This document shows, one piece after another, positions 2,176 to 42,601 of a stretch of DNA of 64,000 nucleotides (position 1 is the stretch's first letter; every line of letters begins with the position of its first letter). The notes beneath the pieces are model-generated. The model was given only the letters and a program-made list of their open reading frames with translations. It ran no database searches and was not told the DNA's origin. Both the position numbers and the translations under genes were made by a program. The DNA comes from Crambe crambe. Lineage: Eukaryota > Porifera > Demospongiae > Poecilosclerida > Crambeidae. The stretch is taken from assembly GCA_963924555.1 (NCBI GenBank), contig OZ004596.1:2914001-2978000 (forward strand), written 5' to 3'.

Positions 2176-5100
2176 CTATTGTTTTTATTGTTCTGGGCAC
2201 AGGCTAGCTTGCTAGCCCTGCCCTGCCCGTACAGTCGCGTAGCCACCGTGCAAATTCTATTGCAGACCGGAAGTGACGTCATGGGCCAAAATGGCCAAAT
2301 TTTGTAAGGCCGAGGTGGTCAGTTTTATAGTTTCTTAACAGCGTGTAGCGGTGATGGAATGAGAAGTTTCTTACACAATTCTTTTGCTAAATAGAAGTAT
2401 TTTACCGATTTACCAACTTTTCGATGTAAGACTAGCGCCACGAAGAGAAACAGGCAGTTGACCTTGCTCCTTACCAATTTAGCAAGCTGCCTCGAGCTAC
2501 GACTTTTGCCGCTAACATCCAGCAGAAGTATTTTGCAGTTTCAAGATTCAACAAGAGGTAAGTTCAGAGTATATTCTAGAGTATTTGGACAAAAAAAAGT
2601 TGAGTGCATGTTGCGGAATGATTTGTGCCAAGTGATTAGGAGCATGTGTTCAAATGAAGTTACAACATTCAAATTCTGTGCAGGTGGTCTCCATTTCATC
2701 ATCCATTATGGGATATCCTAAGAGCAGAATGAGTGTCAATATTGAGCACGAGAAATTTAGTCATGGAACTCACCACTGACAAGATTGCTGTGATCAAATT
2801 CATCTTCAAAGTCACTGTCAATCTCATCTCCAGTTCTACATCTGTCTTCAGCACATGGTTCATCTTCAGCACATGGTTCACCTTCAGCACATGGCTCACC
2901 TTCGATGAAAGTACCATGCCAAGTAAGCACAGTATAATTATATTAACTTATTATTACCTGTCTCTGTCTCCAAGTTTTGACAGTGAGTACACACGCACCC
3001 TGGCCCACATAAATGACCTTCCTTTTTACATTTGCATCTCTTTGTAGTACATCCGGTTTTACAACCACAGCCATGTGTCAAAAAGGCAACCCTGGTTCTT
3101 ATTTTGACCTTGTTCTCTTCCGACTCCCATTCAACAGTAACAGTTTCACCATCTGTGTTCCATCCAAACCATTGCAGTGGTAGCAAAGACATAGTGTTTT
3201 GACATGCCTGCTGCCAGTAATCGGACACCCATAATGCCCTTAGCCAGTGCAATTCTAGTGCTTCTATCGAAGGGGGTAGCTGGTCCTCAAAGGAAATCCT
3301 TTCCCACACCTTTGATCGTATTTCACAGTACCACTCTGTGTGTTGTTTTTTGGGTGAGTCACCATTGGTGAATAGGTTGAAATGAGCCACAGGTGAGCTC
3401 TCCATAAATGCTCCCCTATGCTTCATGTAATATGCTGCCCCAATAGCACGCATGAATGCAAGGAAGCCATCACTTTCGGGGTCTCTGGAAGCTAGAGAGC
3501 CTGGAATTCGGGGATTTGTTCCACATGATATAAATTCAGCAAACCTGAAGAAGGTCTTGAAGAAAGCGGTTTTTCCTATCCCAACAAAGAAGGAGATAAA
3601 ATCACATCCAGTGGCTATGTAAAGCATCTGAATTATTTGTGGACGACTGTCTACAGGAAGTCCATTCAAGAATGGATCAGATGCTAATGCCTCTATGAAT
3701 CTGTTCATGTGTAGCAATGACATTTCCCTCCCTACTGAACTGAGTTGTACAATGACTTCACTTTCCTTGAGGTCAACTGTTGTCAGACCAATAAGGTAGA
3801 CATCAGTGTCTGGAGAATAGACCAACTTTTTGCCTCTTGGCATGTAGTTGGTATGTAACCATACTCTTGTGTCAGCCTCTTCTGCATTGCATTGTAGTTC
3901 AGGAACAAGGTACTCAATTCCGTCACTAGATGTACACCATACTTTGTCTTCGTCTTCACCTTCCCCTGCTCCTGCTACGTACAATTTTTGACCATCCTTC
4001 AGAAGCTCTGGTGCAAGTGCCAGGAAGGAATCACTGGTATACTGCACAAGATTTTTTTTGCATATTCGGCACTGTATGGTTTCTCTCCACCTCAAAGGAA
4101 TTCCTGTTTCATCTGTGAAGGTAGTGTGCTCATGTAGTGTTGAATTTGTGGCATCTCTCCTTCCCCTTTCGATGGTCTTTGGGTGTGGTTTTAGCCTCCC
4201 CGGATTATCAAAAACAATGTGTATCTGTGATACACCTGCTGTAATATACCATCCCACAAACCTTTTCAATAGAAATTTGGTGTACTGTTTCATATTGGAT
4301 AGAACTCTCAAGGGGGTAGTTTGAATCATAAACATTCCTTCCATAATAACACAATCTGGAACCCACCTTGGAGTGAATGCATTGAGAAAAACATTGCAAT
4401 ATCTGTTCTTGAAAAAAACGGTAGTATTACTTTTTTGACCTTTGTAAGGCAGTCCGGTTTCGTCAGCGATGGCTCTAGGCAGTTCTATATACTGTTCGTT
4501 AACTGAGTCTTCACTCACACATTCTTGCATTTTGGCTAGCAGAAGTCTCCCTTTCAGGCATTTAGTCACAAGTGCTTTTTCACGTTGCAGCTGGTTAATT
4601 AACCTCTTCCCTCCCACTTTTTCTGTAGAAAAAGTCTTGAGAGAGTGTGTGCTGGTTTTAACTTTGACACTGGATATGCGCAAGTAAGTATGCTGCACAA
4701 AGGTATCAAAATCATCCTGGCCTATACTTCGGAATGTTAGTAGATCTTGTTGTTGCTGGGGTGAAGCTGTTGTGTTTGTGAAAGGATTCCGCAAGAACTG
4801 ATTCAGGGTGTCGGTTGGAAGTAGCTTTCCTGAGTCTACACATTTTTTCATAGACCATGCATTTTCACTGAACTTTCTGGCTTTCGGGCAAGTGTGTGTT
4901 TCATCAATAGACTCAAGAGTATCAGTTTGATAAAGTTGTGCTTTCAAATTTTTGAGCACTTTTGAGCGGAAGGGAAAATATAGAGCCATGCGGTGTATGA
5001 AATCTTTGGTTGGATGAATCACAGCTGATTTACAGTCTCTATTTATTAGCATCTCGTGAGCCTCGTCTAGAGCTACAAGATGCCATGATGTGCTGTTAAT

Positions 5101-5983
5101 GCTGATGACAAAATTTCCATCTGCGAATGATTGTGAAATATCACTTGGCAGAAGAAGGCAATCTGCCAAATGCTGTGGCAGTATTTTCCTGTAAGTTGGC
5201 CTATCAAATGCACAAAATAGAGGAGCCATATTTTTCAAAGCAGCTACACGAAGCTTCCAATTGCCAGATCGAACAGCAAAGAAGAGTGAAACATATGCAA
5301 AACAATTTTCGAGTATGAATTCACCCCAAAACTGCCAATTTGGATCTTTCTTGCCCATTGACTTGACATAACCTTCAAATTTTTGTAACAACTTACATAT
5401 TTCATCATCCTTTTGTGTCACGTAGGTAGTTACATCTTCTACTTCCTTCAATGCTTCAAAGAGCTGGCTTACTTCAGTGTTTGTAGATATGAAAGTGCTT
5501 GCCATATGAATGTATATTGCTTCCCATGCCCCCATGAAGAACCTGTGAGCATGCTTAAAGTGTGAACACTTGCGCAAAGCTGTCAGAGTTTCTCCTTTGA
5601 AACCGCTCGCTGAAGCAAGTTGCTTCAATCCAGCATCGAAGTAAATTTTGGATAGAACTGGTTGATAGTTCATCAAAATATGGAAATCTCCAGGGAAAGG
5701 CAGTAGCCATGATAACTCTTCACCATAATCCAATTTTATAGACTGTAGAAGTTTATAGGTCTTGGCATCACCTCCAACAACTAGGTGGTCAAGCGTGTTT
5801 CCAATTTCAAATTCTTTGTATAGCCTGTTAATGACATCCAATATTGTTTCCCTTGAGTCGGCAGTTTGATCCAGTACTTCAAGGTAAACATATTTTGAAG
5901 AAGGTTTTGATTGTGGGTATATTTTTTCGAGTAGGTGGTGAAGTGACAAATATTTTTGTTCAGTTGTACCCTCATGAGCTAAC

Positions 5984-6961
5984 CTATCATTCAGAATAAT
6001 TATAACCCACAAGTAAATAATAATCTCTTAAGGCGGCGGGTATGCATTTGCTCATGAGTTAATGAGGCGAGTAGTTGCACCAACTATGAGATGGTACAGT
6101 TGAAAACTACAGTTTCATACTTCCTACTCTACAACTGAGGCCTAATCAGACACTCGAGAACACTACCGTTGCAGAGAAACTCAACCGCTAAGCAGCCATA
6201 CCTCGATCGATTTTTTGACATCAATTTTCTAGAACTACAGACTTGTGTTGACTGTCTTTTGTGCTTATTCCAGTTGTATAAACCAAGATGCAGGGCTGCA
6301 CGGAGAGTTTTGATTTTAGCCAGAAAAGCCAACACTCCAGAATTTTGATCACTTTTAGCCGTCGATTGAACGATCGGTGGGCCATAGCTCTCGCGTACAG
6401 TGGCTTCTTTTCAAAATCTCTCTGTCTGGCCCTGCCCACTGGTTCATATAATAAGAAAAAGTACAAAATACGGTCAGCACATGGCTGCAGTTTGAGAAAA
6501 TTGACATCAAAAAATTGATCGAGGTATGGCTGCTTAGCAGTTGAGTTTCTCTGGGACGGTAGTGGTCTCAAGTGTCTGGTCTGCCCTCAGTTGTAGAGTA
6601 GGAAGTGCTAGTTAGTATGAAACTGTAGTTTTCAACTGTAGCATCTCATAGTCGGTGCAACTACTCGCCTCATTAACTCATGAATTATTCATGAGCAAAC
6701 ACATACCCGCCACCTTAATATGTGTGCAATCATTCAACATCAATTCTATATGGTGCACTCCTGTTGCCTTTAACCTTAGTTGGTGTGCACCTTTTAGAAT
6801 TGTAGTTATTGTCTAGCTATGAGTAGATTTCTACCTGGGATGTATGCCCTCTAAGTAATAATTATGGGCAAAGGAAGATGACCTTGGGGGGGGGGGGGGT
6901 CCTGGTGGTATTGGGGACATTAGAAGGTGTATGGTGTATGTAAAACCACCCACTATTTTAC
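5984..6961 (-). other. Intron 1 of the Academ-like gene
   Basis: A 978-bp GT-AG intron. It is inferred because joining the flanking exons gives a 45-residue stretch that aligns without gaps to the uninterrupted frame of the second copy. It contains the TTAA-flanked element 6028-6718 and a run of about 13 G near 6886. Without the inserted element the intron would be 287 bp. Confidence 0.7.
6028..6718. mobile_element. TTAA-flanked inverted-repeat element, copy 1
   Basis: A foldback element bounded by TTAA on both sides (6028-6031 and 6715-6718). Arms begin TTAAGGCGGCGGGTATG and end in the complementary CCGCCACCTTAA, then continue through a shared GCTCATGAGTTAATGAGGCG tract for about 80 bp, with further complementarity inward. 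TTAA target use is typical of piggyBac-type elements. Relatives lie at 17650-18029, 23690-24026 and 45101-45724. Confidence 0.8.
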
Positions 6962-9350
6962 CTTAATACTATGTAAAAGAATCCAATTTTTTTCAATTTT
7001 TCCACTTCCTTTTCTTCGTCCTCTGTTGGTTTAAATTCTTTTAGTGAATGTCCGATTCTTAAAGGAGAATAATGATTTGTGGACATGTGGTTTAAAGGAT
7101 GATTTATGTCAAGTTGATTTTCTGAAGGAAGCATTTGTTTTGAGTTACTAGAAGAGCATGAAGACTCATACTCTGTTAATGTTCGAGATCGTCTTGCAAC
7201 TTTTTTGCATGGTGGGCCACTTGTTGGATTAAGAGGTAGAAGATCTCTTATAGGTACTGTGTTCTGGTCCATGTTGGTATCTGGATTTGTGCAACTGAGT
7301 GGTTGAACTATTTGCACTGTTGTGCCATGAAAGCCTCTGTTTTGTCTATTATAGACCATTGCATGCCTTTGGGCAATATCAACATTATCGATTGTAACAA
7401 TACTTAGCACTCCAGGGTTAAGTTGGTGACAGACTCCAACCTCTTGGATTTTACTGACTTGGTATTGTACATATCTACGGTGTGTATCAACAGAAGCTAT
7501 TGCCCCAAATTTGTTTAGAATCCTGATGAGCTCATAGGAGCCTCCTTGAGAATCAACTAACTATGTCAGTGAGAAGTACATGTAAAGGGAATGAACAACA
7601 TGTATTGGTGGCAAAGAACATCACACATGTGCAGTATAGACAGTGCAATTTTCGTTTCAGGCTAATTTTATTTGGTGGTATATTTTTTCTCTTCTCAGTA
7701 ACAGTTCTGGTCATCGTAACTACCATATTCCAAATTTTAGGGTCGATCATGGAAATTGCATTGTCTACAGTAAATGTAGAGATATCTTGCGGCTCTATTG
7801 CATCTTCTCTTAGTACTGTGTTGATATGAGAATGAATGCATTCATTCGTCCACGTATAAACCTTTTCCCTTGTGTTTTCATCTGGGGGGGTAGTGCAAAT
7901 ATCTTGAGTTGCAAGATGTATGAAAGATATCCCCGTCCCCTGAACCAATTTTAGTGTTTTGGTTAGGCATGTGATGAGATCTGTGCCACGTCGATACAAT
8001 ACAATACCCATTGATTTTACTGTGCATGAATACATGAGGTGATGGCCAAAAAAGGCAATTAATCTATTGAGTAAACATCTCTTCGGTACTTCTTCCCTTA
8101 TTTCTGACTCACTTGCATCTTTTGTTGCTTCCTTCATAAATAAATTATAGGTATCGGTCAGCAGTACCGCTAATTTTTTCTTAAGGATAGTGCCAACTGC
8201 TGTGATCACACATTTCATGGTATTATCTATCTCTCTCTCTGCCCCCACAGAGTTCACTTGTTGATCAAGATCGTGATCATGGCTAATGACATCTTTATTT
8301 TGTATGATTGAAAGGTGAGCATTATAACAGTTGGTGCATATATCGTCTCTTGATGTAATATTCATTTCAATATCACCATGAATAGAAAAATGAACCTTAA
8401 TGGTTTGGGGATCTGGGCAGTGCCTGCTTGGGCCCTTAATATATTGTCTACATGTGATGCACTTGTTATGGGTATACATATTAGCATGAAGTAATCTGTG
8501 AACTTGCTTGTAGTGTGTATCGCATAAGGGTATAAGTTTGTTGTGGTCATCTGAAGGAATGGTTATGTTGAATAGTGTAGAGATACGCTGTATCGTGAAT
8601 GAACTAGAATGGATGATGGTATTATTGGTGTTGGTGGCTGTGCATTGTGGAATGATGCAGTGATATATCATTTTGCTCTTCCAACGTGGGACATAATCAT
8701 CTTTATTTATATTTCTTTTTATATTTCTTTCACATGGCTTGCAGACACAACTTGCCTCATCCACATCCTCCTCTAACTGAACGAGCTTCTCTTTAATGGA
8801 GGTACTCCATGAAGATGGATGGGAATAATAGTTGGACTCTTGTTTACAGAGAGAACATGGACCACAAGGATGTTGAGGGTGGCGAGGATGAACTTTAGAC
8901 ATGATGACTAATTTGGGAATAAAATGGTTTTAATGTTCTCATATTGCTCAATAAATGAAGCATGCATAACTACTTGTATAATACTTTTGCAGTTACAGTT
9001 TTTGGATATTTGGTGCATCTATCATTAAGCTACTTAGTGAAGGGGGTAACTAATACTGTTCTGCTTGCGGAATGATTTGTGCCAAAAGTCTACAGACCTA
9101 CATGCTTACCTTACAGTTGTGGTTAATTGCTTCCTACACGGAAATTAATGAATATTTCAAACACGATGGGATAGAACACTTCTTCCTTGTTATTTATGCA
9201 GCTGCACTTGTAACTAACCGCTTTTTTGCGGCCTGTGTACAATTTTATATGTAGCTAACATTTATTGATAAATTCGCGGAATTAAAAAGTGCTTCGAAAT
9301 AGGAAATGTATTATTCCAATGTCACTTCCGGTCGGGTGGCTACGCGACTG

Positions 9351-10384
9351 CGTAGAGATCGAAAAAATATTAAAAAAACTATTTAATTGCGCGCGCGGTT
9401 ACGTGCTTGAGAGAGTCGATCGGCGCGGCCATGAGGCGCCAGCGTCCAAATTAAATTTGTTGCAGACCGGAAGTGCTTCCTGTTAAATATTCGCTCGCTC
9501 ATTTTTTAGACAATATTTTGTCATTTTTTATACCCATCATATCTCCGTCATTTTGGCAAAGATGTTTAAGAAATTACATGAAATTGTTTTTCACTTCCTA
9601 TAGATTATAATGATATAAAAATGAAAGCAGTTAAGAATGCCATTGCAAGTTTGACAGCAGATCCATTGGCAGTACTTCATCATGTACATATCATAGTGGC
9701 TGTGTATCTACCGTTCAAACATCAGTTTCCAGGACTTTTACACTCTCAAACTTACTGTACCAGTAGAACGATAGTTGTTTCCATTCATCAAAAAATTAAG
9801 TTGTTCTTTTATAATGATTATCGACTATAGATGCTATTTTCATACCATTAAAATTGAGAAAATTAATATGAACTAACTAGATGTGAAAGTAATCATTACC
9901 CTGGTTAGCCTCACAAATTTATACAGAGAAATAACCATCACAGTAACTAAGCATGTTAGCTTAAGTATATGCCTACCATTGCATGTGAGGCCCTAGTTAG
10001 CCTTAAGGATTGTACTAGTTCTGCTATGCTGAGCTGCACCATGCATGGTTACATGATCTACATGTTACTTGTATAATTCTAATTCTGGCACACAAGATCC
10101 AGCTGCCTGCACTAGCTGTTGAATGGTCCACAGAAGGTACACTGTTAGTGGTTTCAACAACTTTAGTTTGAGGTTTGAGGTATGTAAACAAACATAACTG
10201 TAGTTGACCAGTTATTATGTACTACATGTATACCAAAAAATTAGCTGAATGAAGTTATTCACCACTTGCATAAGATTGGCAATTTAGGAAGTGGAATTAA
10301 CAGAAGTGAAAGCTTAGGTAACACCAACTTAGAATACCACCTATAGATAATTATCATAAAAATTAATACAAAATATTATAGATA
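9351..10384. other. Spacer between the two Academ-like copies
   Basis: Open frames here are short and unrecognised. A stretch at 9440-9475 (ending TTGCAGACCGGAAGTG) resembles the left terminal module of the element at 2232 and could be the decayed 5' end of the second copy. No counterpart end was established with confidence beyond 15591. The remainder is A+T-rich with no visible feature. Confidence 0.4.
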
Positions 10385-15591: not shown

Positions 15592-17649
15592 AAGACTCTT
15601 ATTATTGATGAAACTCTATGTATAAAACTAATATCCTCACTAATTATACTTGAAATTTGAGCTACAATAACTTGTAACCACCTACAGGGAACAAACTACA
15701 AACTGCATCCTAGTTAAAAACATTGACTGCATGTTCTTAGGCCAACTTATCTAATATGGGAAGCCTTGGGAACTAATGTTTGAACAGAGAATTATTATAA
15801 CCATAATTATCAAGCTGATCCTTTCAGAACCTACCTTTTTCTAAGCTGTCTGATGCCTCTATTCTTTTTTATTAGGAGATAAGTTTTGTCCTTTCATGAT
15901 CTTCTTGCACTGTTCTCCCTTTCTGCCAAGATACTTTTACAAAGGATCACCTAGTCACTTAGAAAAAATGAACTAAACATAGCCCACGAAACACGTGGAT
16001 TTTGTTATCAGCTGTTTAATGACGTAATCGTTATTTATATAACATTGTACGCACATAATGCATAGATACTATAACTTCCGGACACGGGATTGGAAACGGG
16101 TGGTTCGCGCGAGATTTTAGGATACAATCCGCGTTGTTTGCTGAGTCAGCAAAGACGTTGCCAAACAGATAATGGCTGAAGCTATAGGAGAAATACAAGT
16201 AAGCAAAGATTGTAACCTTATTATAGCTATGTAATTCACTTTTTAGGCCCCTCTTAATGAGTCTGAGATACATTCAGGCAGTAAAAGGTTTAAACTTCCT
16301 TCATCAAACGCTTCTGCATCTCAAGAGAGTTATATGCATGGTGCCTGGACTGCAGGAATGAATGTTAGCTTTCAAGTTTTGCTTTAATCCATAGCAAACT
16401 TGAAACAGCTCTGACTATTTAAAGTCAGCTGTAAACAAAGGTGGGGGTTTACCATTATAGCATTTATTCATCGGATGAATTCATCTTAATGTGGAAGAAA
16501 TTCTTGGTGTCATCACAAAAATATGGTGGATTTCCCATCTTCCAGAATATCATCTGATAGGTTTTTTAGGTGAACATGATGGGGGATCTACTGTTACAGC
16601 AGCATGTCCATTTTGATACATTTATAGAACTGTGAAGGACAGAGTCCATGGTGAAAAAAATATGTATGGAGTGGTTATTGAGTTTAGAGGAACTTTTGGA
16701 TGAAGAGCTAGCTATAGAAGAAGCAGCAGTCCAATCTTCAGCAAGTGGATCCTCAATGTGAACAGAAGTGGCTTGTATTTTGTATTAGATCTATATATAT
16801 AGATGATGCATTTGACATTTTTATTGATTAAAAAACTATTGTACGAGCAATTAAGGCTAGAGAAATATCATGTGGAAAAAAGATGAAATCATGGAAGAAG
16901 TAATGAGAGATGAATGAATTGGTCTATATATAGTTGCACTGGATATGAATGTCAAAATTGGGAAGGAGTTGCTGAAAATGATCATTGAAGGTGGATCAAG
17001 ATGAGTGAATTGCATGGTTGAAACTTTAAGCAGAGGTTGAAAAAGTCCCTCCAATGTTCTAAAGGACTGTGCAAAGTCCTCATCACCAATAATCAAGAAT
17101 TCATGCAGCATGCTTTTTTTTTCTGTTATAATGATTCATTCATGTTTGGAAATCATTCTCTGCTTTGCATTTTCTTTTTCCAAATCAGGCTTGGAACTGT
17201 GAGCCCTGCAATTGCCTCTAACTGGACCTCTACAAAATGTATTAATCACCCATAGTGCTTGAGTGTTGTTGATAAATTCCTCAACACTAGGATTATCATG
17301 AGTTCCACCTCTCTGTCGCTGGCACCCAAAAAACTTTTCAGAAGGTGCTCACTCAATTTTTTTTTCACTCCATCAATGGAAAAACAGAATATTCCATAAA
17401 TGATAATACTATAACAAGGAATATTAGCAAGCTAACAAGAAGCTCTAGCTACCTGTCATTTTCAAACCCAGCGCAAGGTCTCAGGGCTAAGGAGCATTTT
17501 CTTTTTCTTAACTTTGGAAAACCCTTTCCTTGCTTTTATGCTCCATCCAAATAGACAAGAATAGACAAGAAACTCTTCTTTTAGCCACTATATATAAATG
17601 TAATGATAAAAATCGTCACAGGTAGGAGTATCCATGCATTCAGTTCAGA
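15592..17649. other. Intergenic, repeat-derived
   Basis: The stretch 15592-16060 shows nothing recognisable. Around 16061-16096 there is a sequence (CATAGATACTATAACTT, then GGATTGGAAAC) related to the termini of the elements at 18087 and 20984, so it may be a truncated end of that family. The stretch 16400-17640 has scattered broken frames without recognisable domains. Confidence 0.45.
16172..16386 (+). CDS. Possible two-exon small ORF, unknown
   Basis: The sequence allows ATG at 16172, a 9-codon exon to 16198 (MAEAIGEIQ) with donor GTAAGC, and an acceptor TTTTTAG at 16246. A second exon follows (APLNESEIHSGSKRF...) to a stop at about 16384-16386, roughly 55 residues in all. The splice sites are good but no family is recognised. 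It could be the 5' end of a transposon gene, because the surrounding DNA looks repeat-derived. Weak support. Confidence 0.25.
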
Positions 17650-18029
17650 GTTGACCGTATTTCGTATTTTTATTATATGAACCAGTGGGCAGGGCCAGAC
17701 AGAGAGATTTTGAAAAGAAGCCACTGTACGTGAGAGCTATGGCCCGTCGATCGTTCGATCGATGGCTAAAAGCAATCATTCAGGAGTGTTGGCTTTTCTG
17801 GCTAAAATCTCTCCGTGCCACCCTGCATCTAGGTTTATACAACTGGAATAAGCACAAAAGACAGTCATCACAAGCCTGTAGTTCGAGAAAATTGACGTCA
17901 AAAAATCGATCGAGGTATGGCTGCTTAGCGGTTGAGTTTCTCTGCAACGGTAGTGTTCTCGAGTGTCTGGTTTACTCGCCTCATTAACTCATGAATTATT
18001 CATGAGCAAACGCATACCCACCGCCTTAA
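17650..18029. mobile_element. TTAA-type inverted-repeat element, copy 2 (truncated)
   Basis: Closely matches the right part of the copy at 45101-45724, from TGACCGTATTTCGTATTTT to the terminal TTAA (18026-18029). The left half is missing. About 25 bp beyond the TTAA (CTGCATGCTTAATCGTATC...) are also shared with the 45-kb copy. The open frame inside it (17685-17987) is shared only because the DNA is repeated. Confidence 0.75.
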
Positions 18030-41466: not shown

Positions 41467-42601
41467 TTATAGCAAGTCTTTATCAAGACGATTTGGGTAT
41501 TGGATGCATGTACCACCAGATTCACACTTGTAATTCTTTGGACAACAGTGTATCATATCTGGACAGCATACACTTTCTGTGCCTTGACAGCATCCCCACT
41601 CTCCTGAATTAAGCACACAACAGGTCTGATCATCTTTGCATTCAGATTTAGTGTCTGGACAAACGTTGAAACTAGCACCAATCAAATTGTTGACAATATT
41701 ATGCTCAATTCCAGGTAGTATTTTCATTCCAACATGATTCTGAATGGGGATGGATCCATTTTCTTTTTTACATGTCATATTTCTGGTATCACAAGTATAA
41801 CCTTCACTGCAGCAATACCCACCATCACAGCAAACGGCTTTAGGAAGGGGACAACAGTCCCAAACATTACTAGAAATCTCACAGCATGTATGATTCAAAT
41901 TGCACTCGGTAGAGTCATCTGGACACAAAACTTGGGAAAGTGGTGGTAACGCAGGTAGCTTAGTAAACTTGGGAATAATTGAATTACCACGACTGCATTT
42001 GTCTGAGTTGGGATCACAATAGTACTGATGAGGGCAGCAGTGAATTTTATCACTGCAGCATACTGCTTCAGGTGTAGGACAACAGCCATAACCAGCGGTC
42101 ACTAGAGGACAACAGGTACTTCCGTCTGGACACTGAGTCTTCCCATCAGCACAGATTATAGTTTTTGGTGAAGAATTAGAGTATGAATCATTCACATGAG
42201 ATTCGTTTATACGCATTTGTGACCAAGGTACACTAGAAGTATTTTTCTTACATCCATTTACTGTTGTATTACAGTGGTAGTTTGCTGGACAGCAATGTAA
42301 CATATCTTCACAACATACAGGATAATTAGGCTCACAGACACCATATGTATGATCTTTGACTTCACAGCAATGATAGCCAGTAGGACATTCACCTGGCCCT
42401 GAATATTTGGTAGTCTAGGATATGATTTCACAATAGCATTATAATATTTCCAACAAAAAGGCATTATGATACGAAATACCCAGGCTCTCCTTGCAGTCTT
42501 GCCTGCGCAGTGTTTATGTCTTAACTTACATTAAGAGGATGACATCTGGCAAAGTTTAGCATAAAGATGGCCCACAGGCCTGCTAGGCGCAGTACAGCCA
42601 T
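41467..42601 (-). CDS. Granulin/progranulin-like secreted protein
   Basis: A cysteine-rich secreted or lysosomal granulin precursor. Exon 1 (42601-42530) encodes a 24-residue start with a hydrophobic signal peptide (MAVLRLAGLWAIFMLNFARC) and ends at donor GTAAGT. Exon 2 (42414-41467) encodes the rest, for 339 aa in all. Four granulin modules are visible, each with the paired-cysteine pattern: YHCCEVKDHTYGVCEPNYPV then CCEDMLHCCP; STCCPLV...AVCCSDKIHCCP; HTCCEIS...AVCCDGGYCCSEGYTC; QTCCVLN...SVCCPDMIHCCPKNYKC. The first module lacks the leading C-x5-C. The linkers carry several N-x-S/T sequons. This is fewer repeats than vertebrate progranulin (seven and a half). Its stop is 48 bp from the convergent UFD1 stop. 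Confidence 0.95.

Follow-up and report, generated by a model that had tools for sequence, protein, structure and literature searches.

What does a 64,000-nucleotide stretch of the sponge Crambe crambe (GenBank assembly GCA_963924555.1, contig OZ004596.1, positions 2,914,001 to 2,978,000; hereafter the window) carry between its positions 2232 and 9350, where a preliminary description had placed the complete boundaries of an Academ-like transposon? We find that this interval is a complete DNA transposon of 7.1 kb with a single gene, a new family of known Academ type. Its edges are as first described: the 16-bp inverted termini agree at 16 of 16 positions, a matching 13-bp block lies inverted inside each end, and a CGTA duplication flanks the whole.

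2228..2231, no strand: target-site duplication CGTA, left copy
2232..2247, plus strand: left terminal inverted repeat (TIR) CAGTCGCGTAGCCACC, 16 bp
2265..2277, plus strand: second inverted block GACCGGAAGTGAC, 13 bp, 17 nt inside the left TIR
9321..9333, minus strand: second inverted block, right copy, 1 nt inside the right TIR
9335..9350, minus strand: right TIR, 16 bp
9351..9354, no strand: target-site duplication CGTA, right copy

With up to 3 mismatches allowed, CAGTCGCGTAGCCACC is matched twice in the whole 64 kb (0.16 expected), and the two matches are the two termini. The spacing between GACCGGAAGTGAC and the TIR is unequal, 17 nt on the left and 1 nt on the right.

Whether these boundaries are those of a mobile unit can be read from its relatives. 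The source genome (143 Mb; the window lies on contig C19) was searched with each end and with the interior, and the copy counts given here are lower bounds; 37 regions were retrieved, including two for a copy on C12 and four (L042-L045) with distant matches only. Counting the window, 17 loci have both ends, namely 2 long copies and 15 derivatives, but only 16 are independent because L014 and L015 share 300 identical bp on each side. Long copies besides that of the window comprise a near-complete one on C6 and a third on C12 that has large inserts and has lost its left terminus, in addition to truncated pieces; the two-ended derivatives comprise 11 of 2.6 kb, one of 1.8 kb, one of 2.3 kb and two (7.0 and 7.6 kb) containing other inserts. 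In all 17 two-ended loci the first bases are CAGTCG and the last CGACTG, at matching positions, with small changes within the termini of L009, L021, L024, L026 and L029. An exact 4-bp duplication flanks 14 of the 16 independent loci, and all 14 differ (CGTA, TATA, AACA, TAAG, GATC, TATT, GACA, TGTA, ATAG, CAAC, GTTT, TTCT, AAAT and TACT); 13 were scored by script among 15 loci, with L021 counted from its altered right terminus, and the TACT of L029, whose left terminus is altered, was identified by eye. The exceptions are L016, with 3 bp (GTG), and L019, with none. Pairing left flanks with the right flanks of other loci gave 0 matches in 210, and a 5-bp flank match occurred at 0 of the 15 scripted loci. 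The preliminary description had expected sister copies to share their first and last bases and to differ in their 4-bp duplications, as these do, and had taken similarity past 2232 or 9350 as the sign of wrong boundaries: BLAST comparison of 300 bp per side at the 17 loci found no in-register similarity beyond the termini except in the L014/L015 duplicate, the other matches being internal repeats.

Undisturbed target sites place the boundaries equally well. Five of the sister insertions lie within repeats, and intact copies of those repeats hold the target once. Flanks of 15 loci were joined with one copy of the duplication and compared with the genome, the best 40 of 2416 candidates being scored; four of the 15 constructs (L014, L017, L020 and L026) matched undisturbed repeat copies across the whole junction at up to 97-100%, with 139 or 140 of 140 positions identical in one example per construct. 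The fifth target, that of L024, is preserved within the right flank of L019, where both L024 flanks meet over a single CAAC. Together with the sister copies, these sites bear out the complete boundaries. For the insertion in the window itself, a place on C3 that matches the joined junction in 63 of 71 columns (89%) and has a single CGTA is only suggestive of an empty site: about 8 bases directly left of the CGTA differ, and just 16 bases lie to its right. Two further loci, L033 and L034, are a derivative pair with the same flanks (14 bp seen); we take both this pair and L014/L015 to be segmental or assembly duplicates. A right-end fragment at L012:1991-2720 agrees with the window copy at every one of its 730 bp (100%), no left end was found for it, and we read it as a recent truncation or rearrangement.

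The single gene lies on the minus strand and appears to be spliced.

2938..5983, minus strand: exon 2 to the end of the open frame, with the later part of an RNase-H-type transposase (DUF6589), a FEN1/EXO1-like nuclease and a CXC motif
5984..6961, minus strand: intron, GT...AG, 978 bp, inferred from sequence
6028..6718, no strand: TTAA-flanked foldback, 691 bp, inside the intron, belonging to a separate repeat family
6962..8902, minus strand: exon 1 from the first ATG, with a cysteine-rich N-terminus and the first candidate catalytic Asp; frame break near 7560

Minus-strand frames 8929-7553, 7560-6958 and 6027-2938 are parts of one protein. When the second half of exon 1 is joined to exon 2, the resulting 1214 residues are free of stops, and six long predicted relatives, a choice from 38, align with them across the splice junction at 37-42% identity; a further short 3' exon after exon 2 is possible. 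The product combines an RNase-H-type DDE transposase with a FEN1/EXO1-like nuclease and a CXC motif. The autonomous organization proposed earlier is supported. A search of solved structures by sequence alone returned neither a DDE nor a nuclease relative at E <= 0.001, and above that threshold weak rows only, including EXO1 at 2.2 and CXC proteins, so comparison of folds was needed.

Near 7560 the frame is broken by a 4-bp insertion that the C6 and C12 copies lack, and the frame of the C6 copy is itself broken at other places; thus neither the window copy nor the C6 copy, as assembled, encodes the whole protein. The window copy is probably dead through its private break. The description of exactly one long gene therefore holds as to number, with the additions that the gene is spliced and carries one frame break, and "almost intact" was too generous for a transposase gene with a foldback nested in its 978-bp intron and a private lesion. 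The 4-bp change is a short tandem duplication of the same length as the Academ target duplication; it could be an excision footprint, and it is a single case.

The foldback at 6028-6718 was considered as a young insertion that breaks the gene, a notion we rejected: it sits in the GT-AG intron and is common to the C6 and C12 copies. Of the 294 candidate places for its repeat family, the best 40 were scored. A stretch resembling it was noticed by eye farther right in the window, at about 17630-18027.

How recently did the family move? Aligned with each other, the window and C6 copies differ by 13 indels and agree in 99.5% of 7057 ungapped columns, and the mutual identity of the 2.6-kb derivatives, 10 of 11 compared (L015 was omitted as a duplicate), is 98.3-99.5%. 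These values support recent movement and agree with the earlier remark that this copy looks young. Coding differences between the window and C6 copies amount to 8 synonymous on 1057 sites and 5 nonsynonymous on 3884 sites, a nonsynonymous-to-synonymous rate ratio (dN/dS) of about 0.17 (P 0.002, one-sided, against no selection), and as sequence evidence these substitutions indicate purifying selection.

To which lineage does such an element belong? Very probably it is a recently mobile cut-and-paste transposon and a member of the AcademX lineage, a placement made by architecture and duplication length; the window copy is probably no longer active. The available part of one account gives AcademX 3- or 4-bp duplications and a nuclease, and AcademH 9- or 10-bp duplications and a helicase (PMC10045372). 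By that account the Academ affinity first proposed is supported: the window family has 4-bp duplications at 14 of 16 loci, 3 bp at one and none at one, and its element, like AcademX, encodes a nuclease joined to a DDE transposase of RNase H fold. It differs from AcademH in its 4-bp duplications, and Pfam scans revealed no helicase, either in the three frames of the window or in 32 aligned members. Set beside AcademX, the window element forms its own family, has a GT-AG intron with a nested foldback and carries a 21-bp subterminal direct repeat. Its closest comparison outside the genome, made as a protein alone, is with one predicted 1790-aa protein of Mytilus edulis (P0026, "Tesmin/TSO1-like CXC domain-containing protein"), which is 36% identical over 97% of the exon-2 query. 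The family is absent from the titles of literature matching Academ, AcademH/AcademX, DUF6589 and Porifera or sponge topics, an absence limited to those titles. Large autonomous elements of this kind had been called rare; a bivalve survey, as far as its available text goes, contradicts this with 100 curated autonomous Academ consensus elements averaging 5565 bp (PMC10294476).

The alternative that survives best, although we consider it improbable, is a new superfamily that merely resembles Academ, its DDE transposase, flap nuclease and CXC motif having been gained independently. The AcademX nuclease is of the XPG type, and it counts against our placement that no Pfam XPG match was found in the 32 aligned members, that no paper on DUF6589 turned up in the literature search, and that architecture and duplication length stand in for reference proteins. 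Against independent gain, AcademX is set apart from AcademH in the available account (PMC10045372) by its 3- or 4-bp duplications and by having a nuclease where AcademH has a helicase. A relative of the P element or hAT, the reading drawn from the best fold matches, is less probable still: the window family makes 4-bp duplications with a 5-bp match at 0 of 15 loci, and the 8-bp duplications that both superfamilies leave were not seen. A flap nuclease is not known in either. Kolobok, whose target site is TTAA, differs in that none of the 14 duplications is TTAA. Chance inverted repeats, or segmental duplication around an ordinary gene, of which L014/L015 (duplicated with their flanks) is the sole sign, has next to no probability, being refuted by 16 independent loci with the same termini and different flanks and by the empty sites.

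A transposon with such ends raises the further question of what its transposase would recognize. Inside the termini lies a second pair of repeats, in the same orientation at both ends.

2611..2631, plus strand: 21-bp subterminal direct repeat TTGCGGAATGATTTGTGCCAA, left copy, 379 nt inside the left end
9065..9085, plus strand: 21-bp subterminal direct repeat TTGCGGAATGATTTGTGCCAA, right copy, 265 nt inside the right end

The genome holds 47 exact copies of TTGCGGAATGATTTGTGCCAA, all assigned to retrieved loci of the window family, and none of the reversed control. Conservation was scored by script at 24 loci; the right end had sufficient length in 23 of them and the left end in 19. At the right end TTGCGGAATGATTTGTGCCAA exceeds every other stretch in conservation (its identity is 0.996 over 23 copies and the average 0.849, the copies being related and not 23 independent tests); at the left end three clusters, 24 of 409 windows in all, equal or surpass it. 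Imperfect copies (19 of 21) occur at the right end of L031 and the left end of L032. We therefore regard TTGCGGAATGATTTGTGCCAA as a candidate functional element, for which the exact identity of the copies at both ends is a better argument than conservation, and as a candidate transposase-binding site.

A sister family, here called B (loci L046-L052; the family of the window is A), provides a comparison. Its window copy lies on the plus strand at 9438 to about 16060, 87 bp from the transposon, and in that copy the CAGTCG terminus of other B copies is unrecognizable. Like family A, family B has CAGTCG termini, a GACCGGAAGT block and a related protein; among five two-ended copies examined by eye, three have 4-bp duplications, one has 3 bp and one has none. 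TTGCGGAATGATTTGTGCCAA is absent from L046-L052 when up to 5 mismatches are allowed. Family B has instead an imperfect subterminal repeat at similar depth, kept in the copies that retain that part, which is inverted where that of family A is direct. In family A the end with the long spacer lies 3' of the gene, and it aligns with a family B end (L049) that lies 5' of its own gene; the score is 46, and shuffled sequences reach at most 26. None of the three remaining A-to-B pairings, short-spacer with short-spacer among them, scores above its shuffled maximum. Since the homologous ends lie on opposite sides of the gene, the gene would be inverted relative to them between the two families, on evidence from one end, a flip of the gene and an exchange of ends being alike possible. 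From this we draw, tentatively and as something short of an even prospect, a compound end recognized by the transposase and made up of the TIR, the asymmetrically spaced GACCGGAAGT block and the subterminal repeat pair about 265-380 nt inside. Such ends would form a module independent of the gene, which may be inverted relative to homologous ends between side-by-side sister families while the subterminal repeats run in the same direction in one family and in opposite directions in the other.

Two other features of the window were noted in passing. An inverted-repeat element with 62-bp arms (89%) lies at 1781-2175, immediately left of the transposon, and parts of it are repeated across the genome. 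An open frame at 41467-42414, minus strand, encodes repeated cysteine modules, which may be granulin-like.

These features suggest how the transposon would work. The DDE transposase would recognize the TIR, and perhaps also the inner 13-bp and 21-bp repeats, excise the element and join it to staggered cuts 4 bp apart, whose repair would create the 4-bp duplication; the fused flap-type nuclease may act on DNA ends or flaps as the element is excised or joined. Deleted derivatives share the ends of the full-length element, and protein from full-length copies could mobilize them. We found no biochemistry of the Academ superfamily in the literature consulted, parts of which were available only in excerpt, and the window family, a cleanly bounded and recently mobile family of Academ type with empty sites, an apparently spliced gene under selection, derivatives and candidate recognition motifs, would therefore be well suited to a study of what a flap nuclease fused to a transposase does.
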